The position numbers and the translations under genes were made by a program. This document shows positions 34,365 through 52,389 of a DNA stretch of 64,000 bases, piece after piece. The stretch is from Acrocarpospora macrocephala (lineage in GTDB: Bacteria; Actinomycetota; Actinomycetes; Streptosporangiales; Streptosporangiaceae). The notes under the pieces are model-generated. The model saw only the letters and a program-made list of their open reading frames with translations. It ran no database searches and was not told where the DNA came from. The stretch covers positions 1-64,000 of the forward strand of contig NZ_BLAE01000051.1 in NCBI RefSeq assembly GCF_009687865.1, written 5' to 3'. Numbering within the stretch: position 1 is the stretch's first letter; every line of letters starts with the position of its first letter.

Positions 34365-34666
34365 GACGATATGGGTCGGGGTTCCAGGCAGTCAATGGTC
34401 TGCCTAAAAAGAAACATTCCGGACATACAACGCCATCGGGGTTCGGTCGTCGCCGTGGCATGGCGGGCGAGGTCGCCGGATCAGTGATGTCTTTCCCGGG
34501 CGGGCTTCGGCCTTCGCTCGGAGTGGCTCAGGCCGGACGTGTTCCGCGCGCAAAGGTGTGAGCGCGCGGCTCACATCACGCGGAGACTCATGTGGCTATG
34601 CCGTTCGGCCGCAGGCCGCCGGGCTTCCGCGCCATCGTCGGCACGCTCGAATCAGCGTTGCGGCAG

Positions 34667-34692
34667 TCGGAGATCGGTGTCCGACTATCGGA
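34667..34692 (-). promoter_or_regulatory. Copy of the cluster operator (three half-sites)
   Basis: Plus strand TCCGACTATCGGA at 34680-34692; read on the minus strand it is followed after exactly 8 nt by TCCGA (34671-34667). It sits 14 nt beyond the IclR stop codon. Which transcript it governs is unclear: the operon at 34304 downward is the nearest candidate on the minus strand. Confidence 0.6.
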
Positions 34693-34706
34693 GTCCAGTG
34701 GGGTGC

Positions 34707-35444
34707 CTACTCCTCCGCGGCACCGCTGAGGTTGGACATCCGCTGGCTGATCTGATTGGCCGCCGCCAACAGCGCCGCGGTTCCCGACGTGATCGCTTCC
34801 GAGCGGACGAGGGGGGTGACGATCGCCAGACTGGCGACGACGCCGCCGTCGGCATGGACCGGAACCGCCAGTCCAGCCAGGCCGTTGTGGTACTCGTTGC
34901 TGCTCAACGCGAAGCCCTGGTGTCGCACCTGGGTGAGCTGTTCCACGAGCAGCGCCCGGTCCTCCGGGCTGGTCGTCGAGCTCCTGATGACCTGCTCACG
35001 CTCGTCGTCGGGCAGGAACGCGAGGATCGCCCGCCCCGACGCGGTCCTGGTCAGCGGATACCGGTACCCAGGCGGGAAGTTGACTTGCAGCAGATGCCGG
35101 CGCCCAGGGATGACGTCCGCCGACAGCGCGTCCGATCCATCGCGAACGACGAGCACGATGGTTTCGTTGATGGACTCGGCCAATGCGCTCATGGGCACGC
35201 GCGCCACATTGCGCAGCTCTTCCTCCATCTGCCGAGCCAGCGCGAACAGGCGGGGCCCGATGCTGTAGATGAGCTGTGCACGCCGGACGAATCCGTGGAC
35301 CTCCAGGGTAGTCAGGAGCCGGTAGACAACCGTTCGCGAAAGCTGGTGATGGCGGCTCAGGTCATTGATCGACATGGGCCCGTTGTTCGAGAGCGTTTCC
35401 ACCAACTTCAGAGCCTGGTCGACGGTCTTGGAGATCTCGGGCAC
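34707..35444 (-). CDS. IclR-family regulator of the second catabolic cluster
   Basis: 245 residues from GTG 35444 (GGAGG 5 nt upstream); GTG 35468 is an alternative. Winged helix KTVDQALKLVETLSNNGPMSINDLSRHHQLSRTVVYRLLTTLEVHGF, then effector domain (PPGYRYPLTRTASGRAILAF, NGLAGLAVPVHADGGVVASLAIV). A copy of the shared palindrome lies about 20-40 nt upstream, and others flank the targets from 39.8 to 49.5 kb, so it is the obvious candidate for binding them and for autoregulation. Confidence 0.9.
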   Translation of the reverse strand: MPEISKTVDQALKLVETLSNNGPMSINDLSRHHQLSRTVVYRLLTTLEVHGFVRRAQLIYSIGPRLFALARQMEEELRNVARVPMSALAESINETIVLVVRDGSDALSADVIPGRRHLLQVNFPPGYRYPLTRTASGRAILAFLPDDEREQVIRSSTTSPEDRALLVEQLTQVRHQGFALSSNEYHNGLAGLAVPVHADGGVVASLAIVTPLVRSEAITSGTAALLAAANQISQRMSNLSGAAEE

Positions 35445-35486
35445 TCCCACCTCCGCTCGGACGCCCACTCATCCGAGCTGATGATA

Positions 35487-35499
35487 TCCGAATAACGGA
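35487..35499. promoter_or_regulatory. Cluster operator upstream of the IclR gene
   Basis: TCCGAATAACGGA, a TCCG/CGGA palindrome in the 63-nt gap between the MDR oxidoreductase stop and the IclR start. It differs at one arm base from the consensus TCCGAWWATCGGA. An extra TCCGA lies at 35472-35476. Suggests autoregulation. Confidence 0.6.
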
Positions 35500-35531
35500 C
35501 TCCTCGGCGCGGCGGATGTCCGCCTACGACG

Positions 35532-36584
35532 CTAGGCGGACGCCGCACCACGGTCGGGCGGGGGCGTCGGGTCTTCGGAGAGGCGGACCAGCATTTTTCC
35601 GATATTGCGGCCGGCCAGCAGGTCTCGGAACGCGTCGACCGCCGACTCCAGACCCGAGACGACCGTGTCGGTGCTCCTCAGCTGACCGTCCAGGAGCCAG
35701 GTGGTCGCCCGCGCGACGAAGGCCGGGTACTCGGCCATGTGCTCGCGGATGGTGAAGCCTTCCATGCGCAGCCGCTTGGTGAGCACATAGATGAGGTTGC
35801 TCGGACCCGGCTGCCCCCGGAGTGCGTTGTACTCACCGATGGCCCCACAGACCACGATGCGCCCGTGCTGGTTCATCGAGTCGAGGGCGGCCTGGAGATG
35901 ACCGCCGCCGACGTTGTCGAAGTAGACGTCGATCCCGTCCGGGATGTTCGTGGCCACGCATTCGCTCAAGGACTCGACGTGGTAGTCGAAGGCGCCATCG
36001 AAGCCGAGACCGTCCACCAGGTACGCCACCTTGGCCGGCGTTCCGGCGCTGCCGACGACGCGGCCGGCACCGAGGATTCGGGCGATCTGCCCGACGGCGC
36101 TGCCGACCGCGCCGGCCGCGCCCGAGACGTACAGCGACTCGCCCGGCGTGAGGGCTCCGATCTGGGTGAGCCCGACGTACGCCGTGAATCCGGCCATGCC
36201 GAGCACGCCCAGGTGGGCGGTCAGCGGGATCCCGTCGATGTGCCGCACGGTGCTCGCGTGGCCGGCGTCGAGGACCGCGTGCTCTCGCCAGCCGAGGCGG
36301 TGGCTGACCACGGTGCCCACCGGCAGGTCCGGGTGCTCGGACCGCTCCACCACGCCGATCGCGCTGCCGTCCATGACCTGGTCGAGCTCCCAGTGGGGGT
36401 ATGAGGGGAGCTTGGCCATGCGCACCCTCATGTACGGATCGACGGACATCAGGACGTTGCGCACGAGAACCTGGCCAGGACCGGGCGGTTCGAGCGACGT
36501 GGTGATCATGCGGAAGTCGTCGGTGACCGGCATCCCGTCGGGGCGGCGCGCCAGGTGGACCTCTCTGGTTTCGTACCGGGTCAT
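35532..36584 (-). CDS. Zinc-independent medium-chain reductase (CurA/leukotriene-B4-dehydrogenase type)
   Basis: 350 residues. NVLMSVDPYMRVRM, GMAGFTAYVGL, VSGAAGAVGSAVGQIAR and DVYFDNVGGGHLQAALDSM are typical of NADPH-dependent double-bond reductases such as CurA and PTGR. It probably reduces an alpha,beta-unsaturated ketone or CoA ester. The ATG overlaps the stop of the ligase (ATGA). Confidence 0.9.
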   Translation of the reverse strand: MTRYETREVHLARRPDGMPVTDDFRMITTSLEPPGPGQVLVRNVLMSVDPYMRVRMAKLPSYPHWELDQVMDGSAIGVVERSEHPDLPVGTVVSHRLGWREHAVLDAGHASTVRHIDGIPLTAHLGVLGMAGFTAYVGLTQIGALTPGESLYVSGAAGAVGSAVGQIARILGAGRVVGSAGTPAKVAYLVDGLGFDGAFDYHVESLSECVATNIPDGIDVYFDNVGGGHLQAALDSMNQHGRIVVCGAIGEYNALRGQPGPSNLIYVLTKRLRMEGFTIREHMAEYPAFVARATTWLLDGQLRSTDTVVSGLESAVDAFRDLLAGRNIGKMLVRLSEDPTPPPDRGAASA

Positions 36585-38110
36585 GACACGTGCTCGGAGA
36601 GTTCAGCCCGGACCTCCGCCTTGGCCACCTTGCCGGACATCGTCCGGGGGAGCGGCTCGGGTCGTACGTACACGTACTTGGGCACCTTGTAGTCGGCCAG
36701 TTCGAGTCGGCAGACGTCGAGCACCATCGCGGCCGTCAGGTCGGCCGAGTCGCTCACTACGACGGCGGCCGGCACCTCGCCCCACCGCTCATCGGGCACG
36801 GCGACGACGGCGGCCTCGGACACCCGCGGATCGAGCATGATGATCCGTTCGATCTCGCCGGGGTAGACGTTCAGGCCGCCGGACAGGACCATGTCCTTCT
36901 CCCGACCCATGATGGTGAGGTATCCCTCGTGGTCGAGCCGGCCGAGGTCACCCGTGCGAAGCCAGCCATCGCGGAGGGTCTCGGCCGTGGCTTCGGGGTT
37001 GCGCCAGTAGCCCAGCATGACGGCGGCTCCCCGCAGGCAGATCTCACCGACCTCGTCGTCCGGCAGCGGCGTTCCCTCCGCGTCCATGATGGCGAGCTCG
37101 ATGCCGTAGTTCGTGACGCCGGTGGATCCGGCCTTACGCTCGAAGTCTTCCTGTGGCAGCGAGGCGCCCACACCGGTGCTCTCGGTCATCCCGTAACCCT
37201 GGCCGATCGGCATGCCGCGCCGCAGATAGCGAGCGAGCGTGGCGGCCGAGGGTGGAGCCCCACCGGCCTTCGCGACCCGCAGGGTGCTCAGGTCGGCGGT
37301 GTCGAACCGTGGCAGGGCGGCCAGCTGATCGAAGACCACCGGGACGGCCGGAAAGACGGTGATGTTCCCGTGCTCCAGCTCGGTCAGGGTGCGGGCCGCG
37401 TCGAATCGGGGGTGCATGACGAATCTCGCGCCGGTGTAGTACGTCGGCGCCCAGGTGGCCATGAGACTGCCGGTGAAGGCCAACGGCAGCACCAGCAGGC
37501 AACTGTCGTGTCTGGTCATGGACTCCGTGGTGGCGAACGAGATCGCCGCGGCCAGGAAGTTGCCGTGCGTCAGGATCGCACCCTTGGGGCGGCCGGTCGT
37601 GCCTGAGGTGTAGGAGATGAACGCCGGAAGGTCCGGGTCCCCGACGGCCCGCTTCAAACGGCCCGTCGGCGCTCCGGCCGGCGTGGCGACCAGCGGGCGG
37701 GCCCACGGCGGGCAGCCGGGTCCTTCCCAGTACAGCCGGAGCTCGCGGCCCTCGCGCAGCTCGAGGGCCTGGCGGGTGTACGTCTCGTCCACCAGCAGGG
37801 CGTCCAGCCCGGCGTCCTCCACGATCCAGCTCAGCTCGGGGATGGTGAGGCGGATGTTGAGCGGGACGACGATGGCGTCGAGCGCCACCGCGGCCAGGAT
37901 GGTCTGGATGACCCCGACGCTGTTCTGGCACAGGTATCCGATCCGGTCGCCGGCGCGCAGGCCGTCCGCCGCGAGGTGTTCCGCGAGGGACTCGACGCTG
38001 TCGGCCAGCTCGCGCCAGGTCAGCGTCGCCCCGTCGCACTCGACCGCCACGGCGTTCGGGGTGCGGGTGCTCCAGTACGTGAGACTGGCCGTGATGCGGG
38101 GACTCGGCAT
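36581..38110 (-). CDS. AMP-forming acyl-CoA synthetase
   Basis: 509 residues. P-loop YTSGTTGRPKGAIL, GYGMTESTG, GWLRTGDLG, GREKDMVLSGGLNVYPGEIE and C-terminal catalytic Lys in RTMSGKVAK. Activates an acid to its CoA thioester, the entry step for the beta-oxidation-like genes on the opposite strand. ATG 38110 is 2 nt after the SnoaL-like stop; the long upstream extension of the frame is not supported. Confidence 0.92.
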   Translation of the reverse strand: MPSPRITASLTYWSTRTPNAVAVECDGATLTWRELADSVESLAEHLAADGLRAGDRIGYLCQNSVGVIQTILAAVALDAIVVPLNIRLTIPELSWIVEDAGLDALLVDETYTRQALELREGRELRLYWEGPGCPPWARPLVATPAGAPTGRLKRAVGDPDLPAFISYTSGTTGRPKGAILTHGNFLAAAISFATTESMTRHDSCLLVLPLAFTGSLMATWAPTYYTGARFVMHPRFDAARTLTELEHGNITVFPAVPVVFDQLAALPRFDTADLSTLRVAKAGGAPPSAATLARYLRRGMPIGQGYGMTESTGVGASLPQEDFERKAGSTGVTNYGIELAIMDAEGTPLPDDEVGEICLRGAAVMLGYWRNPEATAETLRDGWLRTGDLGRLDHEGYLTIMGREKDMVLSGGLNVYPGEIERIIMLDPRVSEAAVVAVPDERWGEVPAAVVVSDSADLTAAMVLDVCRLELADYKVPKYVYVRPEPLPRTMSGKVAKAEVRAELSEHVS

Positions 38111-38112
38111 GG

Positions 38113-38712
38113 TCACTCCGGGGTCGAGGTCTGGTGCTGGGCGGCGCGGTACCGGAGGATGACGGGCGTGGACTGATCGGAGTCGTCGTACGCGCCGCGT
38201 GCTTCTGGCGGGTATGTGGACAGGATGCCGTCCGCCGCCGGCTGCTGATGGCGCCACTCGGAGTGGACCCGGCGCCGGGCCAGCTTCCAATCACCGTCGC
38301 GCAGTTCCCAGCGGTCGAGATAGCGGCCGCCGGCGAGCAGGTCGTAGGCGCAGCCGGTGCCACCGAACATGCCGCCGAGCGGGGCATCCGCCCGGACCCG
38401 GTGGTAGGCGGTGCAGAGCGTCTCGCTCACCGCCACCTCCCCGTCCAGGCTGATCAGAACGTTGCCCACCTGGTGGTGGGTGGCGTCGAGGGCCGCCGCG
38501 AACAGCGTGCGGCTGCTCTCCATCGCCTCCCGCCAACCCTTTTCCGAACCGATCGAGGAGACCCACCAGGTGGCGTCGTCGTGGAAGACCTGGTCCAGCA
38601 GCTCCCAGCGCCGCCGATCCACACAGTGGGCGTAGAGGTGGATGCGGTCGGTGATCTCGGCCCGCGCGGCGAGCGCTTCCGGGCTGTAGTTCGCGGCTGC
38701 GGTGGGCGACAT
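38113..38712 (-). CDS. SnoaL-like NTF2-fold protein (first of three in the cluster)
   Basis: 199 residues from ATG 38712 (MSPTAAANY; weak AAGGGACA upstream). ALAARAEITDRIHLYAHCVDRRRWELLDQVFHDDATWW matches the SnoaL_4 type with the Tyr/Asp...Asp pattern; GDWKLARRRVHSEW closes the fold. Relatives include scytalone-dehydratase-like and steroid-isomerase-like proteins. Lies in one operon with the hydrolase, ligase and MDR. Confidence 0.82.
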   Translation of the reverse strand: MSPTAAANYSPEALAARAEITDRIHLYAHCVDRRRWELLDQVFHDDATWWVSSIGSEKGWREAMESSRTLFAAALDATHHQVGNVLISLDGEVAVSETLCTAYHRVRADAPLGGMFGGTGCAYDLLAGGRYLDRWELRDGDWKLARRRVHSEWRHQQPAADGILSTYPPEARGAYDDSDQSTPVILRYRAAQHQTSTPE

Positions 38713-38727
38713 GAGCTGTCCCTTCAA

Positions 38728-39870
38728 TCAACCCCGATGGGCGTCTATCCATGTGGACACGGCATCGATCATGGTTGCCAGCTGCTCGGGTTGCCCGTGC
38801 AGGTAGTGGCGCCCCCCGCCGATAGCGGTGAGGGCGCGGTCATCGTGCGGGATGCTGTCGTAGAGCTCGCGGGCGTGCGAGGGAAAGCAGCTCTGGTCGG
38901 CCGTGCCGTAGACGACGTGGACCGGCGTGGTGACCGAGGGCAGCAGATCGGGGGCGTGGCCCCTGCTCCGGCTGCGCGACCACTGTGACAACCAGGCTCT
39001 GACGGTCGTGAAATGGCCGAGGGTCGCCGGCTGGAAGTTGGCGTTCCAGGGGTCACCCCACAGCGTCCCCGGTTCCCGGTCGTTCGGGTCGAGGGACAGG
39101 TCGACGTAGCGCGGGTCCGCGCCCACGCCGTGGACGACGAACGGAAGGTCGGCGATTCCGCGCTCGGCCAGCTGGCCGAGCATCCCCTCCGCCCACGCCG
39201 TGATGGCGTCGTTGCGGGCCCGCTGGGCGATTCGATAGGCCCGCAGCCAGCTGGCGTCGTAGGGAATGCCGTTCGAGGCGTCGTACATGTCCAGCCCGGG
39301 GTCGCGTGCGAACGGCGCCGCCTCGTCGGCGATCGAGGGGTCCAGCGTCTCGGTGAGCAACTGCGAGCGGCCCGGATGGGCCATGGCGAGGATGAGGAGG
39401 TCGGCCGGCGGGAGGTCGGCTCTGGTCAGATCGGGCCCGCCGCCGCCGGGGGAGGAGGTGATGCTCGGCCGTTCCGCCTGGTTCTGGTAGAGCGCGGCGA
39501 GCGCCCCGCCGCCGGAGTTGCCGAACAGGACGACCTGTTCGTATCCCTCCGTCCGCAGGTACCGGATGACGCTGCCCACGTCGACCACGCAGTTCTCCAG
39601 CAGGAGCGCGGAGTCGTTGCCGAGGTAGCGCGTGGTCATGCCGATGGCGTCGTACCCCGCGCCGGCGATCGCGGTCAACGCGTAGTGGCCCATGAAGTTC
39701 GAGGAGGGGTGCACGGCGACGACGGCCGTCTCCGCCCGCCGGTCCGGGTGGGCCCGGTGCCGGGTGCACCACAGGGTGCCACTGATGCGGGCGACTCCCG
39801 AGTAGATCTCGTTCGCCGAAGGCACGTCCGCCATCGGCACGGCCAGCAGGTCCGTGCGGGTGGGGCTCAC
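38728..39870 (-). CDS. Alpha/beta hydrolase
   Basis: 380 residues. Nucleophile elbow GNSGGG (Ser119), acid candidate in VVYGTADQSCFP, His in GGGRHYLHG. A long insert (about 135-245) forms a cap. Could be an esterase or a C-C bond hydrolase acting after ring cleavage. First gene of the minus-strand operon (hydrolase, SnoaL-like, ligase, MDR), with the cluster operator 13 nt before its start. Confidence 0.85.
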   Translation of the reverse strand: MSPTRTDLLAVPMADVPSANEIYSGVARISGTLWCTRHRAHPDRRAETAVVAVHPSSNFMGHYALTAIAGAGYDAIGMTTRYLGNDSALLLENCVVDVGSVIRYLRTEGYEQVVLFGNSGGGALAALYQNQAERPSITSSPGGGGPDLTRADLPPADLLILAMAHPGRSQLLTETLDPSIADEAAPFARDPGLDMYDASNGIPYDASWLRAYRIAQRARNDAITAWAEGMLGQLAERGIADLPFVVHGVGADPRYVDLSLDPNDREPGTLWGDPWNANFQPATLGHFTTVRAWLSQWSRSRSRGHAPDLLPSVTTPVHVVYGTADQSCFPSHARELYDSIPHDDRALTAIGGGRHYLHGQPEQLATMIDAVSTWIDAHRG

Positions 39871-39882
39871 GACCTATCTCCG

Positions 39883-39908
39883 TTCGCTTATCGGACGTAT
39901 ATCTCCGA
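39883..39908. promoter_or_regulatory. Cluster operator upstream of the hydrolase operon
   Basis: TTCGCTTATCGGA (39883-39895), then 8 nt, then TCCGA (39904-39908). The 18-mer from 39891 to 39908 recurs with two mismatches at 40036-40053. It controls the minus-strand operon starting at 39870 if functional. Confidence 0.62.
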
Positions 39909-40027
39909 TTCTGTCGCCACTCTGTCATCGGGGGTCGAGGCCTGTCAATGCGGTGTCCACCGGTCAGGTGCTCGGGAAATGGGGCAGGTTCTTGACAGTC
40001 TGCGGGTCTGACCAGGAAGGTGTAATC

Positions 40028-40064
40028 ACCGATAATCGGACTCATATCTCCGACTCTTGTCGGA
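40028..40064. promoter_or_regulatory. Cluster operator upstream of the mycofactocin SDR operon
   Basis: ACCGATAATCGGA (40028-40040; core CCGAT-A-ATCGG perfect), 8 nt, then TCCGA (40049-40053), which also forms TCCGAC-tctt-GTCGGA (40049-40064). It lies 32-68 nt before the SDR start. Confidence 0.68.
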
Positions 40065-40095
40065 TCTGGCGCTTAAGTGGAGGTGGCACCACACC

Positions 40096-40953
40096 GTGAC
40101 GCGAGAGACCGTCCTCATCACCGGCGGGGCACGCGGCCAGGGCCGTAGTCACGCGCTCGGCTTCGCGGCACGCGGTGCCGACGTGGCCGTGCTCGACATC
40201 GGCGTACCGATCGACGGCCTCCCCTACGAACTGGCCACCTCGGACGACCTGCGGGAGACCGCCGACCTGATCGCCAAGACGGGCGCCCGTGGCCTGGCGG
40301 TCGCCTGCGACGTCCGCGACTCGGCTCAAGTCCAGGCGGCGGCCGACACCGTGCTGGCGGAGTTCGGCCATATCGACACGCTCGTCCTCAACCACGGCAT
40401 CTGGAGCACGGGGCGGTTCTGGGAGGTGTCGGAGGAAGCCTGGACGTCCACGTTCGACGTCAACGTCAACGGAAGCTGGCGGATGGCCAAGGCGGTCGCG
40501 CCCTCCATGATCCAACGACGCGAAGGCAACATCATCATCATCGGGTCGACGTCGGCCACCATACCGACGCAGAACTACGCGCACTACGCGGCCTCCAAGG
40601 CGGCGCTCGTGCAGCTCACCAAGATCTTCGCCGCCGAACTCGGGGAGTTCGGCGTGCGGGTCAACTCGGTCAGTCCCGGGCTGGTCGACACGCCGATGGT
40701 CAACTTCCAGGCGGTCTACGACCGCGTCCGCCCAGGCGCCTCCCGCGAGGAGTTCCTCGCGGGAGGGTATGCCATGACGCTGCTCGCCGGACGCCGCCAA
40801 CTCGATCCCAGCTCGGTCACGGCGGCCGTGCTCTGGCTGGCCTCGGCGCAGGCGGCCGACATCACCGGTCTCGACCTCGTCATCGACGCGGGTAACCGCC
40901 TGCTGCCGCGCCACAACCCACGGCCGTGGACCCCCGAAGGGAATGCGTCATGA
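40096..40953 (+). CDS. Mycofactocin-dependent-type SDR
   Basis: 285 residues. Opens ITGGARGQGRSHALGFA and carries the family's insert PYELATSDDLRETADLI after beta-2, the region linked to a non-exchangeable nicotinamide cofactor in mycofactocin-coupled SDRs. Catalytic YAASK is present. Such enzymes need mycofactocin as electron acceptor and often oxidise alcohols. GTG 40096 follows GGAGGTGG; a TTG at 40057 would overlap the operator. The stop overlaps the dioxygenase start. Confidence 0.87.
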   Translation: MTRETVLITGGARGQGRSHALGFAARGADVAVLDIGVPIDGLPYELATSDDLRETADLIAKTGARGLAVACDVRDSAQVQAAADTVLAEFGHIDTLVLNHGIWSTGRFWEVSEEAWTSTFDVNVNGSWRMAKAVAPSMIQRREGNIIIIGSTSATIPTQNYAHYAASKAALVQLTKIFAAELGEFGVRVNSVSPGLVDTPMVNFQAVYDRVRPGASREEFLAGGYAMTLLAGRRQLDPSSVTAAVLWLASAQAADITGLDLVIDAGNRLLPRHNPRPWTPEGNAS

Positions 40954-42155
40954 CGTACTACCGGGCCGTCGGCTCGATCTCCCGCAAGCGCCACACGGCC
41001 CATCGTCCGGACGGGTCGACGCTGGTCTACGAGGAGATGATCGGCGAAGAGGGGTTCTCGTCGACGTCGTCCCTGCTCTACCACCGCAACCTGCCGTCCG
41101 CGATCGCCCGCGCCTCGACGTGGCAGCCGGGCGACATGGGTCTGCACGAGAACGAGCCGATGAATCCGCGGCATTTCACGCTGCACCGGCTCTTCCCGGC
41201 GGGCGGCGGCGGCAAGGACCTGGTCCGGGACCGGCGGCTCATCCTGGGCAACGACGACGTCCGCATCGCCTACGTGGTGGCCGGGGAACGCTCGCCCTTC
41301 TACCGCAACGCGGTGGGCGACGAGTGCGTCTTCATCGAGCGGGGCAGCGCTCGCCTGGAGTCGGTCTTCGGCACGCTCGAGGTGACCAGCGGCGACTACG
41401 TCGTCGTACCCCGGGGGACCACGCACCGATGGGTCCCCGACACCGGTTCCGGTCCGCTGGGGGCGTACTGCGTGGAGGCGAACTCACACATCCAGGCTCC
41501 GAGCCGGTATCTGTCCCGGCAGGGTCAGTTCCTGGAACAGTCGCCGTACTGCGAGCGTGATCTGCGCGGGCCCACGGAACCTCTGCTGGCCGAGGACCTG
41601 GGCGAGGACCCGCGCGACGAGACCGATGTGTACATCAAACACCGGGTCCGCGGCGGCATCGGGGGCACGATCCACACGATCCCGTTTCACCCGTTCGACG
41701 CGGTCGGCTGGGACGGGTGCCTGTATCCGTACGCTTTCAGCGTGCACGACTTCGAACCGCTCACGGGCCGCGTCTTGCAACCCCCACCCGTTCACCAGGT
41801 GTTCGAGGGCCGCAACTTCGTGATGTGCAACTTCGTGCCACGCATGGTCGACTACCACCCCGACGCCGTGACGGCGCCCTACTACCACGCGAACGTCGAC
41901 AGCGACGAGGTCATGTTCTACGTCGCCGGCAACTACGAGGCCCGTTCCGGATCGGGTGTCGCACCCGGTTCGGTGACCCTGCACACCGGCGGCCATTCGC
42001 ATGGCCCGCAACCGGGCGCCTACGCGGCGTCCATCGGCGCGAAGGCGGTGGACGAGCTCGCCGTGATGGTGGACACGTTCCAGCCACTGCTGCTGGGCGA
42101 GGGCGCTCTCGCCAGCGACGACGGTGTCTATCTGCGTTCCTGGCTAGAGGGCTGA
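40950..42155 (+). CDS. Homogentisate 1,2-dioxygenase-family ring-cleavage enzyme
   Basis: 401 residues. Iron-site signatures YYHANVDSDEVMFYV and HTGGHSHGPQPGA correspond to the His-x6/7-Glu and later His of homogentisate dioxygenases; bicupin fold. Asp rather than Glu is at the canonical +6 position after the first His, with Glu at +7, as I recall for bacterial HmgA-like proteins. The true substrate may be a gentisate- or hydroquinone-like ring made upstream. ATG overlaps the SDR stop (ATGA). Confidence 0.85.
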   Translation: MTYYRAVGSISRKRHTAHRPDGSTLVYEEMIGEEGFSSTSSLLYHRNLPSAIARASTWQPGDMGLHENEPMNPRHFTLHRLFPAGGGGKDLVRDRRLILGNDDVRIAYVVAGERSPFYRNAVGDECVFIERGSARLESVFGTLEVTSGDYVVVPRGTTHRWVPDTGSGPLGAYCVEANSHIQAPSRYLSRQGQFLEQSPYCERDLRGPTEPLLAEDLGEDPRDETDVYIKHRVRGGIGGTIHTIPFHPFDAVGWDGCLYPYAFSVHDFEPLTGRVLQPPPVHQVFEGRNFVMCNFVPRMVDYHPDAVTAPYYHANVDSDEVMFYVAGNYEARSGSGVAPGSVTLHTGGHSHGPQPGAYAASIGAKAVDELAVMVDTFQPLLLGEGALASDDGVYLRSWLEG

Positions 42156-42189
42156 GTCCAGCCGGCGGATTTCGCGAGTGAGGAAAGAG

Positions 42190-43098
42190 ATGAGCAGACT
42201 GCGGGACAGAGTGGCGATCGTCACCGGGGCGGGCCGGGGGCTTGGCCGCTCGTACGCCCTCCACCTCGCCAGGGAAGGGGCCAAGGTCGTTGTCAACGAT
42301 CTCGGCGGCGGCCTGCACGGCGAACCCGGTCAGGACACTCCGGCTGAGGACGTGGCCCGCGAGATCCGCGAAGCGGGCGGCGAGGCCATCGCCAATGGTG
42401 ACGACATCGCCGACTGGGAGGGCGCCCACCGGCTCGTCCAGGCCGCCCTCGACGCCTTCGGAGACGTCGACGTGCTCGTCAACAACGCCGGGATCCTGCG
42501 CGACCGGATGCTGGTGAACATGACCGCGCGGGAGTGGGACGATGTGATCCGGGTCCATCTGCGCGGTCATTTCTGCCCGACCAGGGCAGTGGCCGCCCAC
42601 TGGCGAGGCCGGGCCAAGGAGCACCCCGACCGCCCTCCCCGCGACGCGGCGCTGATCCACACCACGAGCATCTCCGGTCTGTTCGGCAGCCCTGGCCAGG
42701 CCAACTACGCGACCGCCAAGTCGGGAATCGCCACGTTCGCCTACGAGTGCCACCTCGAGCTCAACGAGCGGCTCGGCGTGCGCTCCTACGCGATCGCGCC
42801 GAGCGCCAGGACCCGGCTGACCGAGAGCTCGCCGGCGGCGGTCGACGCCGTGGCGAAGCCGGACGCCGGGTTCGACTTCTTCGACCCGGACAACGTCAGC
42901 CCGTTCGTGGTGTGGCTCGCGTCGGCCGGGTGCGGCGCCCCCTCCGGGACGGTCTACACCGTGGAAGGCGACGAGGTGACCGTCGTCCAGCCCTGGACCC
43001 GGGGCCGCCGGATCAAGGCCGGTGACCATCGGTGGACGCTCGACCAGCTCGACAAGGCGTGGCCGGAGCTGTTCGCGGAGGCGGACGGGCATGCCTGA
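42190..43098 (+). CDS. SDR of the (3R)-hydroxyacyl-CoA dehydrogenase type
   Basis: 302 residues. TGAGRGLGRSYALHLAREGAKVVVNDLGGGLHG is typical of the multifunctional-enzyme-2/FabG-like branch; NNAGILRDRML and YATAK follow. A C-terminal extension of about 30 residues is present. It probably oxidises a 3-hydroxyacyl-CoA in the beta-oxidation-like block. Start ATG 42190 after GAGGAAAG. It overlaps the hydratase gene by 8 nt. Confidence 0.87.
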   Translation: MSRLRDRVAIVTGAGRGLGRSYALHLAREGAKVVVNDLGGGLHGEPGQDTPAEDVAREIREAGGEAIANGDDIADWEGAHRLVQAALDAFGDVDVLVNNAGILRDRMLVNMTAREWDDVIRVHLRGHFCPTRAVAAHWRGRAKEHPDRPPRDAALIHTTSISGLFGSPGQANYATAKSGIATFAYECHLELNERLGVRSYAIAPSARTRLTESSPAAVDAVAKPDAGFDFFDPDNVSPFVVWLASAGCGAPSGTVYTVEGDEVTVVQPWTRGRRIKAGDHRWTLDQLDKAWPELFAEADGHA

Positions 43099-44143
43099 CC
43101 GGCTTGGCAGCGTCCAGCTCACCGATGTCGTCCGCTACGCCGGAGCCAGCGGCGACCTGAATCCCCTCCACTACGATCCGTCGTTCGCCCGGGCGGCCGG
43201 ACACGAGGGGCTCTTCGCCATGGGCGCGCTCCACGGCGGGTGGCTGGTCTCCCACGTGGTGTCCCAGGGGGCGTCGCCGCCGGAGGGCGCACCGTGGTTC
43301 CTCCGGCTCAGATACCACGGGATCGTGCCACTCGGGCTCGACCTGGAGGCCGAGTCGTCGATCGGGCCCGACCGGACCACCGCCGACCTGACCGGCGGTG
43401 GCGAGCGCAAGGTCAGCCTCGAACTGGCCGGCCTCGACGCGCCGCCCGCGGCCGGCGGGGGCCGCGACGAGCAACGGTGCACGTTCCCCGTCGAGCTGGG
43501 CACGTCGAAGCGGTTCGGGGAAGCGGTGCGCTGGCCAGAACCGCTGGCTCCGGGCCGCCCGGTCCCGCCGACCTACCTGTCCGTCCTGAGCTTCTGGCTG
43601 CCCAACCCCGATCCCATCGACCGAGTCGGATTCGACCGCTCCCGGACGCTGCTCGGTGAGACCTCGATCGAGCTGGCCCGAGGTCCGGTGCGCGTCGGCG
43701 AGGTCTTCGAGGTCCGGGAGTACATCGGCGCGGAGCGCACGCGTGCGGGTCGGGCCGGTGAGATGCGCCTGGTGGATCTGGTCGCGGAACTCTCCGACGC
43801 CACCGGACTCCGCGTGGTCTACCGGAACACGTTCATCCTGATGCCGGCGCGGGCCGAGGCCGCGCCGCTGAACGGAAGCAGGGATCCCGAGACAGGGCAG
43901 GTCTTCTACCCGGCGAGGGCCCTGAGCGTCGACGGCCGGATGCGCCCACTGGTCGAGTCCGCCCTCGCGACCGAGGGGGTGCTCTACTCGTGGACCACGT
44001 ATGAGGGCACGGCGTACGGGCAGATCGATCTCGACGACGGGGTCCGGCTGCAGGTACGGCTGGCGCCGGGTGAGCATCAGATCGGAGCGCGGTACCGGAT
44101 GGCCGGCTCACCCGATGGGGACAGGTGGTTCGCGCATGCGTGA
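43091..44143 (+). CDS. Double hot-dog MaoC-like hydratase with swapped domain order
   Basis: 350 residues. The N-terminal half has the catalytic hydratase-2 motif YAGASGDLNPLHYDPSFARAAG with HGG following. The second half (TSKRFGEAVRW ... RVGEVFEVREYIGAERTRAG) resembles the non-catalytic MaoC_N/FAS1-type repeat. In most relatives the degenerate hot-dog comes first. Probably hydrates an enoyl-CoA. Overlaps both neighbours by 8 nt. Confidence 0.83.
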   Translation: MPDRLGSVQLTDVVRYAGASGDLNPLHYDPSFARAAGHEGLFAMGALHGGWLVSHVVSQGASPPEGAPWFLRLRYHGIVPLGLDLEAESSIGPDRTTADLTGGGERKVSLELAGLDAPPAAGGGRDEQRCTFPVELGTSKRFGEAVRWPEPLAPGRPVPPTYLSVLSFWLPNPDPIDRVGFDRSRTLLGETSIELARGPVRVGEVFEVREYIGAERTRAGRAGEMRLVDLVAELSDATGLRVVYRNTFILMPARAEAAPLNGSRDPETGQVFYPARALSVDGRMRPLVESALATEGVLYSWTTYEGTAYGQIDLDDGVRLQVRLAPGEHQIGARYRMAGSPDGDRWFAHA

Positions 44144-45266
44144 CGTGATGGTCCTCGGCACCGGCATGGTGCCGTTCGGACGGTATGCGCCGGGCTCGGC
44201 GCGCCGACTGGCCGCGGAAGCGTCGGTGGCGGCGCTGTCGGACGCTGGCTGCGCCTTCGCCGATCTCGACGCCTTCGTCTGTGGTTCCGCGCATCCGCTG
44301 ACCCCGCGCGGGGTCTACCTCGCCAAGGAGCTGGGGGTCACCGGCCTGGCGGTGCTGCACGCCGAGCATGCCTCCGCCTCGGGCCTGGCCGCCATGCACC
44401 TGGCCTGGCTGGGGGTGGGCTCCGGCGCCTACGACGCCGTGCTGGTCCTGGGCGTCGACTGCCCGGAGAGCGAACAGTCCGCTCTGGAGATCATCGAGAG
44501 CGAGGGCAATCTGCCCGCTCCCGCGCTGTTCGCCATGTGGGCCCACCGCCGGATGCACGACCGTGGCACCACCCCACGCCACTTGGCGGCGGTGGCCGCG
44601 AAGAACTGGAACTACGCGCGCGACAACCCCTACGCGGCCCGGCGGGCGGCCGAGCCGATCACCGTCGAGAAGGTCCTCGCCAGCCGCATGATCGCGCCGC
44701 CGCTGACGAGCATGATGTGCACCCCCTGGGGCGAGGGCGCGGCCGCCGCCGTCGTCTGCTCGGCGGAGTTCGCCGGGCGGTACGGCGCCGACCGCGCGGT
44801 CCGGATGCTGCATTCACACGTCGAGAGCGAGACGTACAGCCCGGGGCACGTCTTCCAGGGGGCGATCGTCGGGCCGCCCGCCATGTCCAGGCGGGCGGCC
44901 GGCGCGCTCTACGAGGCCACCGGGCGGGGCCCGGCCGACGTCGACGTCGTGCAGGTGCACGACGCCTTCGCGATCGAGGAGCTGTACTACTACGAGCTTC
45001 TCGGGTTCGCCGCCGACGGCGATGCCGAGCGCCTGGTCGAGAAGGGCGCCTTCGGCCCGGGCTCGCGGGAGCGCTTCGGCCTGCCGGAGTTCTCCACGCA
45101 CGGCGGCCTCGTCGCCGGCGGCCACCCCGGCGGCCCGACCGGGCTCGCTCAGGTCCACGAGACCGTCCGCCAGCTGCGCGGGGGCCGATCGGTCGGCCTG
45201 TGCCACATGCTGGGAGCCGGCTCGGTCGCCATCACGCAGATGTACGAGCGAGCGCGACCCTCATGA
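44136..45266 (+). CDS. SCP2-thiolase-like protein lacking the nucleophilic Cys
   Basis: 376 residues. Thiolase-fold signatures: VVQVHDAFAIEELYYYELLGF (His), GGHPGGPTG (His), CHMLGAGSVAITQM. The nucleophile motif, normally NxCxSG, reads EHASASG (78-83), with Ser80 where Cys should be. It may therefore be a retro-aldolase-like member, such as Ltp2-type steroid side-chain lyases, rather than a thiolase. No DUF35 partner is seen nearby. Overlaps the hydratase by 8 nt and the dehydrogenase start (ATGA). Confidence 0.83.
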   Translation: MRDVMVLGTGMVPFGRYAPGSARRLAAEASVAALSDAGCAFADLDAFVCGSAHPLTPRGVYLAKELGVTGLAVLHAEHASASGLAAMHLAWLGVGSGAYDAVLVLGVDCPESEQSALEIIESEGNLPAPALFAMWAHRRMHDRGTTPRHLAAVAAKNWNYARDNPYAARRAAEPITVEKVLASRMIAPPLTSMMCTPWGEGAAAAVVCSAEFAGRYGADRAVRMLHSHVESETYSPGHVFQGAIVGPPAMSRRAAGALYEATGRGPADVDVVQVHDAFAIEELYYYELLGFAADGDAERLVEKGAFGPGSRERFGLPEFSTHGGLVAGGHPGGPTGLAQVHETVRQLRGGRSVGLCHMLGAGSVAITQMYERARPS

Positions 45267-46402
45267 CCGGGGAGCCTGCGGCGCTCCGGGCGGAGGCAGC
45301 CGCCTGGCTACGTGAGCACGCGCCGCGGTTCGCCGCCGACGGTCCCGCACCGCTCTCCCCGTTCGAGGTCGTCGACGAGGCCCGGGAGCGGGAGCTCGTC
45401 GAGCTTGCCCGCCGATGGCAGCGGCACAAGTTCGAGGCCGGATGGGGCGCCCTCTCGCTGCCGACCACGCTCGGTGGACGCGGGTTGTCCCGGGCCGACG
45501 ACGTCATGTTCACCGACGAGGAGTCGCGCTACCACGTTCCGACCCACGTCCTGGAAGTCACGACACGGATGGTCCTGCCGACGCTGGTGCACTGGTCGCC
45601 CGAGAAACGAACCTCGATCGAGGGGATCATCAGCGGTCGTGAGGTGTGGTGCCAGCTGTTCTCCGAGCCGGACGCGGGTTCGGACCTCGCCGCGCTGCGC
45701 ACCCGCGCCACCCGCCAGCGGGACGGCACGTGGACGGTCACCGGTCAGAAGGTGTGGACGTCATGGGCGCACCTGGCCCAGCGTGGTTACCTGCTGGCCC
45801 GTACCGGTGCCGACGGCCACGGCGGCCTGACCGCGTTCGAACTAGACATGGCGGCACCTGGTGTGTCGATCCGCCGGATCCGGCAGATGACCGGGGCGTC
45901 GACGTTCAACGAAGTCTTTCTCGACCAGGTCTCGTTACCGGTCGATGCGCCCATCGGCCCCGTGGGCCAGGGCTGGGCCGTGGCCATGACCACGCTCATG
46001 AACGAGCGCCTTGCCGTGGGCGCCGACCAGATCCCGTACGACGAGCTGCGAGCCGAGGCGGCGCGGCGCGGCCGGCTGCATCAGCCCGACGTGGCCGCGG
46101 GCCTGGGCGCCATCCGGGCCCGGCGGATCGTGCTCGAACAACTGCGGCAGCAGATGGTCCAGTCGGTACGGCGCGGCGGCGATCCAGGTCCCGAGGGCTC
46201 GGCGGCCAAGCTCTTCCTGGCCGAGAGCGTGTTGGAGGCGGCCAGGTTCGCCCGGTGGCTCATCGGCCCCGACATCGTCGTGGATGACCGGTGGAGCCAG
46301 TTCGCGCTCGCGTGGCCCGGCATCAAGAACGCCGGCGGGACCGACGAGGTCCAGAAGACCATCATCGCCAACCGGATCCTCGGCCTGCCGAAGGAAGGGT
46401 GA
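45263..46402 (+). CDS. Acyl-CoA dehydrogenase, large-subunit type
   Basis: 379 residues. CQLFSEPDAGSDLAALRTRATR, TGQKVWTSWAHLAQRGYLLARTG and FNEVFLDQVSLP are FAD/acyl-CoA signatures. C-terminal NAGGTDEVQKTIIANRILGLPKE lacks the Y-E-G-T catalytic Glu of MCAD-like enzymes, as found in two-subunit dehydrogenases where the partner complements it. The second ACAD gene starts 3 nt downstream, suggesting an alpha2beta2 enzyme as in steroid catabolism. Confidence 0.88.
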   Translation: MTGEPAALRAEAAAWLREHAPRFAADGPAPLSPFEVVDEARERELVELARRWQRHKFEAGWGALSLPTTLGGRGLSRADDVMFTDEESRYHVPTHVLEVTTRMVLPTLVHWSPEKRTSIEGIISGREVWCQLFSEPDAGSDLAALRTRATRQRDGTWTVTGQKVWTSWAHLAQRGYLLARTGADGHGGLTAFELDMAAPGVSIRRIRQMTGASTFNEVFLDQVSLPVDAPIGPVGQGWAVAMTTLMNERLAVGADQIPYDELRAEAARRGRLHQPDVAAGLGAIRARRIVLEQLRQQMVQSVRRGGDPGPEGSAAKLFLAESVLEAARFARWLIGPDIVVDDRWSQFALAWPGIKNAGGTDEVQKTIIANRILGLPKEG

Positions 46403-46405
46403 ACC

Positions 46406-47446
46406 ATGCACGCCGACGACGACGTCGAGCACCAGATCAGGGCAGAGCTGTCCCGGGTCGTGGAGTCAGCGCGGAGCCGGCGGAGTCTCCGTGAGCGCAC
46501 CGAGGGCGGCGACGACGACGCGACCCGGCGTCAGCTGAGCGAGCTCGGGATCCTCGACGCGATGCTGCCGGACGGGCCCGGACTCGCCGGTGGCGGGCTC
46601 CGGCACGTTCTCGCGGCCGTTGAGGAGGCGGCCGTGGGCCTGGTCGCCCCGGATCTGCTGGTGTCGACACTCGCGTTGTGGACAGGTCTCGCGGCCCAGC
46701 CGCGGCCCGGGGAGCTCCGGCAGATCCTGCTCGGTCCGACGGCGGTGGCGTGGCCCGGAGTCCTGGCCGGCGCGGAGTCGGTTCGCCAGGCGGACCGGTC
46801 GGTCACGGGCCGCCTGGGCTACGTACCGGCCGGGTTGTCGGCCCAGCACCTGGTTCTGGTGCTGCCGGACGCCTCCGGGGCCGTGGTCTGCCTGGTCACG
46901 CTCGACAACGCCCGTCGTGAGGCGTTACCCGTGCTCGACCTGAGCCGTCCCGCCGCAGTGCTGGAGCTCCGTTCGGCGCATACCCGGGAGCTGGGATGTC
47001 TCTCCCCCGCAGAGCTCACCCGGTTGCGGGCGGCCTGGCTGGTGGCCATCGCGGCCGACTGTCTCGGCGGCATGCGGGCCGCGCACGACGCGGCGGTCGG
47101 CTACGCCCGGCAGCGGATCGCCTTCGGCCGGAGCATCGGCAGCTTCCAGGCGGTACGGCACCGGTGCGCGGACATGTTCGTCGATGTCGAGACCACCCGC
47201 GCGGTCGTCCGGGGGGCCATTGACGCCGTGGACGAGGGCGGCGAGGACGTGGACGCGCTGGCGCTGGCCGCCGCCAGCCATGCCATGGAGGTGTTCAGCC
47301 GCGTCGCCGAGTCCTCGATCCTGGTGCACGGCGCGCTGGGGTTCACCTACGAATGCGACGCCCACTTCTATCTGCGACGGTCCTACAGCAACGCCGCCGC
47401 GACGGGCGGGGTGGACCGCCTGCGCGCCGAACTCGCCATCGGCTGA
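46406..47446 (+). CDS. Acyl-CoA dehydrogenase, partner subunit
   Basis: 346 residues, shorter than usual because the N-terminal helical and middle domains are reduced. The C-terminal domain keeps YARQRIAFGRSIGSFQAVRHRCADM and VHGALGFTYECDAHFYLRRSY. Immediate coupling to the preceding dehydrogenase argues for a heteromer. Last gene of the plus-strand operon that starts at 40096. It ends 19 nt before the convergent SnoaL-like stop. Confidence 0.86.
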   Translation: MHADDDVEHQIRAELSRVVESARSRRSLRERTEGGDDDATRRQLSELGILDAMLPDGPGLAGGGLRHVLAAVEEAAVGLVAPDLLVSTLALWTGLAAQPRPGELRQILLGPTAVAWPGVLAGAESVRQADRSVTGRLGYVPAGLSAQHLVLVLPDASGAVVCLVTLDNARREALPVLDLSRPAAVLELRSAHTRELGCLSPAELTRLRAAWLVAIAADCLGGMRAAHDAAVGYARQRIAFGRSIGSFQAVRHRCADMFVDVETTRAVVRGAIDAVDEGGEDVDALALAAASHAMEVFSRVAESSILVHGALGFTYECDAHFYLRRSYSNAAATGGVDRLRAELAIG

Positions 47447-47465
47447 GTTCGGCGCGGCCCGACGC

Positions 47466-48014
47466 TCAGGTGCCCTGGAAATGGGCGTACGAGGGATCCG
47501 TGCCGGGTCCGCCCGGTCGAAGCCCTTGTTTGATGGTCGTCCAGACCGGGTTGCCCGGCAGGTCGTCTCGCGACCAGTCGATGAGCATGACGCGGCGGGC
47601 GATGCGCCACTCCCCATCGCGCCGCTCGAAGCGGTCGAGGGCACGACCGCCCATGATGCGCAGGTGTGTCCCGCTGTCCTCGGGCCGGAGCACGAGGCTG
47701 GTCTGCGGGCCGACGGGATGCATCACCAGGTTGTAGGTCTCGACGTTCGCGACACCCGCCTCGAGGTCGAGGTCGATGATCACGTTCGTGATGTGGTGCT
47801 GGCTGAACTCCGGCAGGTCGCCGAACCCGTCGACGAGCCGCTGCGCGAACTCCGCCGGTGTCGCGTCCGGCGCGTCGTAGGCCCGGATGTCGACCGCGTC
47901 CGGGAAGTAGACCGACTTCAGCAGTTCCGGGTCACGCCGATCGCAGCCGCGACAGTACCGCTGGAGTACGTCGCGTATCTCCAGATGAGCGCTGATCTCT
48001 TCAAGGGTGTACAG
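47466..48014 (-). CDS. SnoaL-like NTF2-fold protein with probable CTG start
   Basis: 182 residues. ISAHLEIRDVLQRYCRGCDRRDPELLKSVYFPDAVD and HITNVIIDLD ... GEWRIARRVMLIDW are a SnoaL_4 signature, and homology starts about 5 residues into the frame. No ATG, GTG or TTG lies in frame before GTG 47783, which would remove the first third of the fold. CTG 48014 (reading LYTLEEISAHL), 6-7 nt after GGAAGGTGG, is the best start. Second of three such proteins in the cluster. Confidence 0.75.
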   Translation of the reverse strand: MYTLEEISAHLEIRDVLQRYCRGCDRRDPELLKSVYFPDAVDIRAYDAPDATPAEFAQRLVDGFGDLPEFSQHHITNVIIDLDLEAGVANVETYNLVMHPVGPQTSLVLRPEDSGTHLRIMGGRALDRFERRDGEWRIARRVMLIDWSRDDLPGNPVWTTIKQGLRPGGPGTDPSYAHFQGT

Positions 48015-48033
48015 GGTCGTCCACCTTCCGCTA

Positions 48034-48059
48034 GCCGTTATTCGGAGACTATCGTCCGG
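48034..48059. promoter_or_regulatory. Cluster operator between two SnoaL-like genes
   Basis: GCCGTTATTCGGA (48034-48046), 8 nt, TCCGG (48055-48059). It sits in the 92-nt divergent gap between the genes starting at 48014 (minus) and 48107 (plus), so one site may serve both. Confidence 0.6.
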
Positions 48060-48106
48060 ATAGTGGATGGGGAATAGGTCCGCATCCGAGGTTGAGAGGA
48101 GGCCTC

Positions 48107-48562
48107 ATGGCCGAGAACCACGCCCGGGGTCGGCAGGCGCTGGCTCGCTTCTACGCGGAGGAAGAGGCTTACCTTGCTCGGGCAGGGGCTGATCAGGCCC
48201 GACTGCTGGCCTGCTTCGCCGAGGATGTGGTGATCCGGGAGGCGCCGAGCCTGCCCTACGGCGGCGACTGGTACGGCCACGCCGGCGTGCTGGCCCTGAT
48301 GAACCGGCTTTCGGAGGTGTATGAGCGCGCCACGTTCGAGGATCGGACGATATTCGCCGACGGTGACGACGTTTTCGTCCTCCTTCGCAGCACTGTCCGG
48401 TTCCGCGCGTCCGGGCGGGAGCTCCAGAACACCGTGCTCCAGCACATCGTCTTCCGGGACGGACTGATCGCCGCGATGAGCCCGTTCCACTGGGACACGC
48501 AGGCGGTCGTCGCCTTGGCGGCGCGGACGTCACAGGACGCCCGTGGCGCGGGCGATCTGTAG
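48107..48562 (+). CDS. SnoaL-like NTF2-fold protein (third copy)
   Basis: 151 residues. LLACFAEDVVIREAPSLPYGGDWYGHAGVLALMNRLSEVY resembles SnoaL-like/ketosteroid-isomerase-like proteins. A strong GAGAGGAGG precedes ATG 48107. Its 3' end overlaps the convergent SDR gene by 33 nt. Function unknown; with two relatives in the same cluster it may isomerise or dehydrate pathway intermediates. Confidence 0.8.
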   Translation: MAENHARGRQALARFYAEEEAYLARAGADQARLLACFAEDVVIREAPSLPYGGDWYGHAGVLALMNRLSEVYERATFEDRTIFADGDDVFVLLRSTVRFRASGRELQNTVLQHIVFRDGLIAAMSPFHWDTQAVVALAARTSQDARGAGDL

Positions 48563-49315
48563 CGCGGTGCCCCCGGAGCTGTAGCCTCCGTCGACCGGGA
48601 TGTCGGCTCCGGTCAGGTAGGCGGCCCCGTCACTCAACAGGAAGATCACCACCTGCGCGATGTCGGCCGCCACCGCCGGCCGTCCGGCCGGTGTCACGGC
48701 GGTGACCGCGTCCCGCTGCCGCGGATTGGCCGCCACCATCGGGGTGTCGACGATGCCCGGATGCACCGCGTTGACCCGGATGCCCGCGGCGGCGAACTCG
48801 AGCGCGGCCGCCTTGGTCAGTCCCCGCACCGCCCACTTGCTCACGCCGTACGCGACGGCGTGATAGCCGGCGAGCGCCACCGCGCTGCCGATGTTCACGA
48901 TGGCCCCGCCGCCCTGCTCGATCATGACCGGTGCCACCGCCCGGATGCCGAGAAAGCTGCCTCGGGCGTTGACGTCCATGACCTCGTCCCACAGGGACGG
49001 TGCCGTCTCCAGGATCGTCCCCGGCCGAGCGATTCCGGCGTTGTTGACCAGACCGTCGAGTCGCCCGTACCGGGCCAGCGTGTCGGCGACGATGCTCCGC
49101 CATGACTCCTCGGAGCCGACGTCAAGGCCGACGAAGTGGGCGGAGCCGGCGCCGTGGCGGGCGTTGAGCGCATCGGCGAGGTCGATTCCTTCCGCCTCGA
49201 GCAGGTCTCCGATCACGACCCGAGCCCCCATGGCCGCGGCCAGTTCCGCCTCGGCAGCCCCCTGGCCGCGGGCCCCGCCTGTGATCAACACGACCTTCCC
49301 CTCGAGCGCGACCAT
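48530..49315 (-). CDS. Short-chain dehydrogenase (20beta-hydroxysteroid dehydrogenase-like)
   Basis: 261 residues. LITGGARGQGAAEAELAAAMG, NNAGIARPG, NIGSAVAL and YGVSK; acidic GDLLEAEG after beta-2 favours NAD. Typical of actinomycete SDRs named after 3alpha/20beta-hydroxysteroid dehydrogenase. ATG 49315 follows GGAGGG by 8 nt. The cluster palindrome TCCGATTATCGGA is 18 nt upstream. Confidence 0.88.
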   Translation of the reverse strand: MVALEGKVVLITGGARGQGAAEAELAAAMGARVVIGDLLEAEGIDLADALNARHGAGSAHFVGLDVGSEESWRSIVADTLARYGRLDGLVNNAGIARPGTILETAPSLWDEVMDVNARGSFLGIRAVAPVMIEQGGGAIVNIGSAVALAGYHAVAYGVSKWAVRGLTKAAALEFAAAGIRVNAVHPGIVDTPMVAANPRQRDAVTAVTPAGRPAVAADIAQVVIFLLSDGAAYLTGADIPVDGGYSSGGTALQIARATGVL

Positions 49316-49639
49316 GACTGACCCTCCGGTTGCTCCGATTATCGGATGTAATACACCACTTCCAGTTCGTGCGGGGGAGCCTAGCAGCGGACACGAGTGC
49401 GGTGGAATGGTGCTGATCCAGGCAGTTCGCTCAATTTCTGTGCTTGACGTCACATGACGGGCATGTTTCAATGAGCAACATTCGGATGGCTAACTCCGAA
49501 AATCGGATACCTACAAACCCACGCCATAGGCGACCACACCGCGCGGCGGGTAGGACGCGACCGGCGTGCCGCTCCGGGCCCCGGCTCGGGGGAGGGCATT
49601 CAACCTGGCTCCGACGGAGCCACTGGCGCAAGGCAGGCC
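49316..49639. promoter_or_regulatory. Divergent promoter region with two cluster operators
   Basis: 324 bases without a gene between the SDR (minus) and the importer operon (plus). It carries the perfect palindrome TCCGATTATCGGA (49334-49346) near the SDR and TCCGAAAATCGGA (49495-49507) in the middle. On the minus strand the second is followed after 8 nt by TCCGA (49486-49482). No other coding signal was seen. One site per transcript is the simplest reading. Confidence 0.65.
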
Positions 49640-52388: not shown

Positions 52389-52389
52389 C

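Follow-up and report, generated by a model that had tools for sequence, protein, structure and literature searches.

Operators composed of three boxes of alternating direction have been described for 32 orthologous groups of IclR-family regulators, including PcaU, PobR and HmgR, and palindromes in tandem at a distance of 18-22 nt for 94 IclR groups, in the parts of the survey by Suvorova and Gelfand (2021; PMC8222616) that are considered here. The same parts report that the third box is necessary for PcaU binding. We found sites of this architecture in a 64,000-nucleotide stretch of the Acrocarpospora macrocephala genome (contig NZ_BLAE01000051.1, positions 1 to 64,000; hereafter the window, with a G+C content of 70%), in which seven palindromes of the form TCCGA-N3-TCGGA span about 15 kb around an IclR-family gene. 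Judged from sequence, the IclR encoded at 34707-35468 very probably controls a 20-kb uptake and degradation cluster via these sites, and the best reading, in support of an earlier note on this DNA, is a local regulon in which the IclR uses an operator of three half-sites. We infer membership in this regulon from the co-occurrence of IclR and sites, the match of the recognition helix and the conservation of the sites.

A second carrier of this IclR is Acrocarpospora pleiomorpha NBRC 16267 (Streptosporangiaceae), whose protein is 92% identical. The two genomes were the only carriers at E ≤1e-40 in a family sample of 200 genomes that includes the window's own; the 7-13 best candidates were scored in each, and weaker relatives may be missed. 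The seven palindromes listed below had been proposed in the earlier note, and each is present at the position given in brackets. All are intergenic, which for the copy at 48034 depends on reading the SnoaL gene to its left as CTG-started at 48014. Mismatches were counted against TCCGAWWATCGGA on the better strand, and identities refer to A. pleiomorpha.

Site A (34680), 34667-34692, minus strand: TCCGATAGTCGGA-N8-TCCGA just past the iclR stop codon; 1 mismatch; palindrome 13/13, third box 5/5, spacer 3/8.
Site B (35487), 35487-35499, minus strand: palindrome between the leftward operon and iclR, without a clear third box; 1 mismatch; palindrome 13/13.
Site C (39883), 39883-39908, plus strand: TTCGCTTATCGGA-N8-TCCGA at the leftward promoter; 2 mismatches; palindrome 13/13, third box 5/5, spacer 4/8.
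Site D (40028), 40028-40053, plus strand: ACCGATAATCGGA-N8-TCCGA at the rightward promoter; 1 mismatch; palindrome 13/13, third box 5/5, spacer 6/8.
Site E (48034), 48034-48067, plus strand: GCCGTTATTCGGA-N8-TCCGG between divergent SnoaL genes; 2 mismatches; palindrome 12/13, third box 4/5, spacer 6/8.
Site F (49334), 49334-49346, plus strand: exact TCCGATTATCGGA, located 18 bp upstream of the SDR start; 0 mismatches; palindrome 13/13.
Site G (49495), 49482-49507, minus strand: TCCGATTTTCGGA-N8-TCCGA upstream of the Liv importer; 0 mismatches; palindrome 13/13, third box 5/5, spacer 5/8.

All seven sites match TCCGA-N3-TCGGA with 0-2 mismatches over its ten fixed letters, in keeping with the palindrome of a three-box IclR operator, which consists of two inverted boxes 3-4 bp apart. 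An external third box of alternating direction at 7-8 bp from box 2, a gap which we derived from the published group 2 consensus, is found at five of the seven (A, C, D, E and G), each time exactly 8 bp on, in agreement with the earlier reading. Site A is accompanied by a weak second palindrome at 34659-34671, and site F carries ACCAC in place of a TCCGA third box in both species. Site E is a tandem, in which the third box forms half of a second palindrome (TCCGGATAGTGGA) so that the palindromes stand 21 bp apart, an arrangement that is plainer in A. pleiomorpha.

Synteny with A. pleiomorpha extends from iclR to about 54986, with protein identities of about 82-96%, and all seven sites are present there. 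Their palindromes are identical at 90 of 91 positions, against 84/140 in the 20-bp flanks upstream (p=9e-14) and 74/140 in those downstream, and the third boxes of the five three-box sites at 24 of 25, against 24 of 40 in their 8-bp spacers (p=0.0012). Both differences, one palindrome letter and one third-box letter, fall in site E. The sites thus appear to be under base-level selection, and the third half-site in its own right, because its letters are kept where those of the spacer drift; the 8-bp distance itself is maintained. This cross-species conservation is independent proof of the predicted sites. A search of genome_contigs for orthologues of the IclR returned one locus, and further afield none was found at E ≤1e-35 in 393 other genomes of the class sample (top 7-13 candidates per genome scored).

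The genome scan that the earlier note had suggested showed a concentration of the tight motif at this locus, as in A. pleiomorpha. The three-box pattern (palindrome, N8 and a TCCGA oriented as the first half) occurs with up to two mismatches at five places in the 12.1-Mb genome, four of them in this cluster, and with up to three at 12 places, five of which belong to the cluster, where the reversed pattern used as a control gives 2; the perfect palindrome TCCGANNNTCGGA occurs at seven places, three of them here. Sites 35487 and 48034 are too degenerate for the three-box scan to recover. The Poisson tails for this concentration, 2e-8 and 9e-14, are indicative only, because the pattern was taken from the same window sites. 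With one mismatch the palindrome is common across the genome (277 matches per strand, against 182 for the reversed control). Of five genomes of the genus, two have both the IclR (E ≤1e-40) and the site cluster, those of the window (G000) and of A. pleiomorpha (G127), and the three others searched (G027, G079 and G106) have no match within two mismatches and no such IclR at that threshold.

Several exact or near-exact matches lie elsewhere in the genome. Contig 46 holds two identical longer hairpins containing TCCGATGATCGGA (L070, 7993 and 12540), 4.5 kb apart and with matching flanks, which are probably a repeat element and not operators. The remaining exact palindromes are a copy on contig 16 without a called open reading frame within 400 bp and a copy on contig 20 about 30 bp past the 3' end of a long open reading frame. 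A three-box match on contig 44, whose letters are identical in A. pleiomorpha including the spacer, may be conserved coding DNA.

These hairpins, together with a loose scan of the window (≤3 mismatches) that gave 32 matches against 23.6 ± 6.2 expected, a number equalled or exceeded in 10 of 100 shuffles and hence not significant, could be taken to mean that the palindromes in the window are themselves chance matches or a repeat element. We regard this as highly improbable: the sites are placed at promoters, they are almost perfectly conserved amid diverged flanks, these flanks differ from site to site, and a very similar operator recurs before homogentisate-dioxygenase-like (HGD) genes in other genera.

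The predicted reader of the sites is encoded between sites A and B:

34707-35468, minus strand: IclR-family regulator with HTH_IclR and IclR_C domains; GTG start at 35468 or 35444.

The protein belongs to the IclR family by two Pfam domains above their cut-offs (PF01614, 85.5 bits against 24; PF09339, 39 bits against 22), and its best NCBIfam model, TIGR02431 (PcaR/PcaU/PobR), reaches 115.8 bits, below the subfamily cut-off of 284.75. It is the only regulator that family searches found in the block shared with A. pleiomorpha. Its recognition helix (13 residues, LSRTVVYRLLTTL) agrees at 10-12 of 13 positions with those of nine IclRs encoded within about 5 kb of an HGD gene, the genome's own copy on contig 49 among them, and at 10 of 13 with a more distant IclR (L083). 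Among the 25 paralogues in the genome, the 24 besides the contig-49 copy share 2-9 of 13. Outside the helix, identity is 19.5-29.7% to all IclRs compared and 24-30% to the HGD-linked ones. In a tree of 36 sequences the nine HGD-linked IclRs form one clade (100/99) with the contig-49 protein inside, and the window IclR stands on a separate branch, sister to a wider group of 11 at 95/74, which is short of strong support. An orthology with the HGD-linked (HmgR-like) IclRs was therefore rejected, the window protein lying outside their clade. A second IclR-family gene was noted at 23398-24240, in the left-hand gene run of the window, and its helix differs (6/13).

The HGD-linked IclRs offer a view of a very similar operator in other genomes. 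In the rest of the 200 family genomes, the three-box pattern with up to two mismatches has 44 matches in 40 genomes, at most two per genome (reversed control 8), and an HGD-like gene directly follows 13 of these matches, which come from 12 genomes; around three inspected matches (G016, G030 and G086), no HGD gene was found within the stretch fetched. We then took 40 HGD genes from 40 other genomes of the family, chosen irrespective of the motif as consecutive rows of the HGD table and of a type about 55-60% identical to the HGD-like protein of the window. The 240 bp before these genes (upstream regions L151-L190) contain the palindrome within one mismatch in 15 cases and within two in 20, against 0/40 and 4/40 in a control stretch further upstream. 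The palindrome (≤2 mismatches) is joined by a TCCNN at N8 in 18 of the 40, and a weaker form of the operator in seven more regions, all of genus g33, brings the total to 25/40. An IclR gene lies within 1.5 kb of 26 of the 40 HGD genes, and the operator is associated with it (16/26 with the neighbour vs 2/14 without, p=0.007; 23/26 vs 2/14, p=6e-6, when the weaker form is included), p-values which are optimistic given that the 40 genomes are related. At one HGD gene (L108, 3195-3228), a perfect three-box match overlaps a near-perfect one on the opposite strand, with the palindromes 21 bp apart.

These modules resemble the window locus in the palindrome with its third box at N8, in the recognition helix and in an HGD-like gene as the apparent target. 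They differ in having one operator before one gene, where seven sites are spread over about 15 kb here, and also in the third box (TCCTN or TCCAC), the HGD type and the IclR sequence outside the helix. Among 18 sampled genes of the other HGD type (64-69% identity to that of the window), none had an IclR within 1.5 kb or an upstream palindrome within two mismatches. By identity the window HGD belongs with this type, and the idea that it is a duplicate of an IclR-controlled HGD was discarded as unsupported. We found neither the HGD-linked operator of this family nor the correspondence of helix and operator in print. Literature searches likewise returned no paper on an IclR in Acrocarpospora or on an IclR with 'three half-sites', and the matches for IclR, homogentisate, Streptomyces and hmgA concern, by title, a Variovorax strain and the wheat rhizosphere.

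The similarity of helices also raises the question of which protein reads the sites. Another regulator, such as the IclR beside the HGD gene on contig 49 (L193), which shares 10 of the 13 helix residues and has a similar presumed operator, could read or share them. We hold this to be improbable, since that operator (a TCCTC box, N8 and TCCGATATCCGTA) differs from the window sites in its second half, CGTA for CGGA, and in its third box, with an unchanged form in A. pleiomorpha (L191 and L193), and since the seven sites surround and co-occur with the window IclR.

The genes around the sites form the following units, of which the two operons and the importer are supported by family searches and synteny and the SDR gene by family searches:

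35532-39870, minus strand: leftward operon with an NADP-dependent reductase (ADH_N_2), an acyl-CoA ligase, a SnoaL_4-like protein (38113-38727) and a protein with a partial hydrolase match.
40096-47446, plus strand: rightward operon with an SDR, a homogentisate-dioxygenase-like cupin (40926-42155), a further SDR, a MaoC-type dehydratase, a thiolase-like protein and two acyl-CoA dehydrogenase-type proteins.
47466-48014, minus strand: SnoaL_4-like protein with an apparent CTG start.
48092-48562, plus strand: SnoaL_2-like protein, start probably the ATG at 48108.
48530-49315, minus strand: SDR-family oxidoreductase.
49640-54377, plus strand: Liv-type ABC importer with a binding protein, two ATPases and two permeases (BPD_transp_2).

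The CTG start (48012-48014) is preceded by a ribosome-binding-like stretch, and the same codon is TTG in A. pleiomorpha. Aligned to solved homogentisate dioxygenases, the HGD-like protein retains two histidines and a glutamate, which we take to be the iron ligands. It scores 51.6 bits against the hmgA model, far under the cut-off of 510.75, and for this reason we assign no substrate to it; that of the cluster is perhaps an aromatic compound.

Three sites follow a candidate -35 element at a similar distance:

39943-39948, minus strand: candidate -35 hexamer (TTGACA) for the leftward operon; distance to site C 40 bp here and 38 bp in A. pleiomorpha.
39992-39997, plus strand: candidate -35 hexamer (TTGACA) for the rightward operon; distance to site D 36 bp in both species.
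49444-49449, plus strand: candidate -35 hexamer (TTGACG) for the Liv operon; distance to site G 38 bp in both species.

With TTGAC 36-40 bp ahead of their first boxes in both species, sites C, D and G would, given the usual promoter spacing, be located at or just after the start of transcription and therefore in the position of a roadblock repressor. A comparable distance recurs in the 26 HGD operators, where TTGAC stands 37-42 bp before the first box in 18, just 11 bp before it in seven, and is absent in one. This placement, shared by both species and by the 18 HGD operators, makes it unlikely in our view that the same IclR acts in the manner of PcaU or PobR, activating the catabolic promoters with an inducer and repressing only iclR, although the core motif is close to those given for PobR and PcaU in the parts of PMC8222616 considered and the best NCBIfam model, if under its cut-off, is that of PcaR/PcaU/PobR.

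We therefore favour repression, for which we propose the following mechanism. An IclR dimer would bind the seven TCCGA-N3-TCGGA sites and repress its own gene and six further units, namely the leftward and rightward operons, the two divergent SnoaL-like genes, the SDR gene and the Liv importer. At five sites, one more subunit or a second dimer might sit beside the palindrome-bound dimer, on the third half-site two helical turns from the first. Bound just downstream of TTGACA or TTGACG at sites C, D and G, IclR would block RNA polymerase, until the pathway substrate or an early intermediate, probably an aromatic or cyclic acid or a CoA ester, releases it. In this model we infer the binding, its repressing rather than activating effect, the stoichiometry and the effector. 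To the explanation as a whole, in which IclR binds the seven sites and represses iclR and six units until an inducer releases it, we give a probability of roughly 85%.

Several observations, in addition to the loose window scan, weigh against this explanation. Both PcaU and PobR act as activators. There is no third box at sites B and F and no TTGAC ahead of sites B, E and F, and site A, at the 3' end of iclR, fits no obvious promoter. Only 63 bp, with site B among them, separate iclR from the leftward operon, so that the gene may be part of the operon transcript in addition to being expressed from a promoter of its own, which we assume. The third box of the HGD operators is TCCTA, TCCTC, TCCTT or TCCAC and never TCCGA, and the footprinting rests on one species pair, with the orthologue in two genomes only.

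Site A marks the left edge of the conserved block. It is the last conserved element there (34667), and past its third box the DNA of the two species is unrelated. The OYE-type gene on its left in the window (32292-34304) is located on a different contig in A. pleiomorpha, at 96% identity, where its 1.5-kb flanks contain two palindromes at two mismatches and none closer. The suggestion of the earlier note that the copy at 34680 ties in the 17-kb operon on the left thus finds no support, given that homology ends past site A and the OYE-type gene is elsewhere in the second species. Site A may instead be an auxiliary operator, or serve whichever gene comes next. With the end of homology and the OYE-type gene on another contig, window position 34667 is also the border of a rearrangement.

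The proposed regulon would turn an unnamed catabolic cluster into a defined one with a named regulator and seven operators. Its five sites with a third half-site and two without it would constitute a natural test of the role of this half-site, and the two paralogous IclRs with nearly the same helix a natural test of how cross-talk is avoided. The HGD-linked operator could furthermore aid the annotation of homogentisate-type pathways in the family. A tentative scenario, to which we give slightly less than even odds, is that an IclR paralogue related to the HGD-linked (HmgR-like) regulators kept their helix and three-box code while the remaining protein changed almost beyond recognition, and that the operator came to occupy six promoter-side positions of a 20-kb island. 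Each cell would then contain two IclRs of almost the same code, told apart by a few letters (CGGA vs CGTA, TCCGA vs TCCTC).

Compared with the published three-box IclR operators, as far as the considered parts of PMC8222616 describe them, the window sites have the same palindrome with an external third box oriented as the first box. Their boxes 2 and 3 stand 8 bp apart, in line with the group 2 consensus given there (TGRAACA-N1-2-TGTTYCA), and the 21 bp between the palindromes of site E fall within the tandem spacing of 18-22 nt. Host, gene content and regulator are different here, the flanking TGT/ACA is not conserved, and two of the seven sites are plain palindromes. In Acinetobacter baylyi, the operator of PobR (TTGTCCGATSATCGGACAR; PMC8222616, Table 1) has an almost identical 13-bp core (TCCGATWATCGGA vs TCCGATSATCGGA). 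The Ser-Arg-Thr of PobR 55-57 (Table 5 of the same source) also occurs in the window helix, where Arg60 of PobR is replaced by Tyr, both by a reading by eye without alignment. PobR belongs to a different phylum and pathway. The present case fits the known three-box design of IclR operators, of which it is a new and well-supported example.

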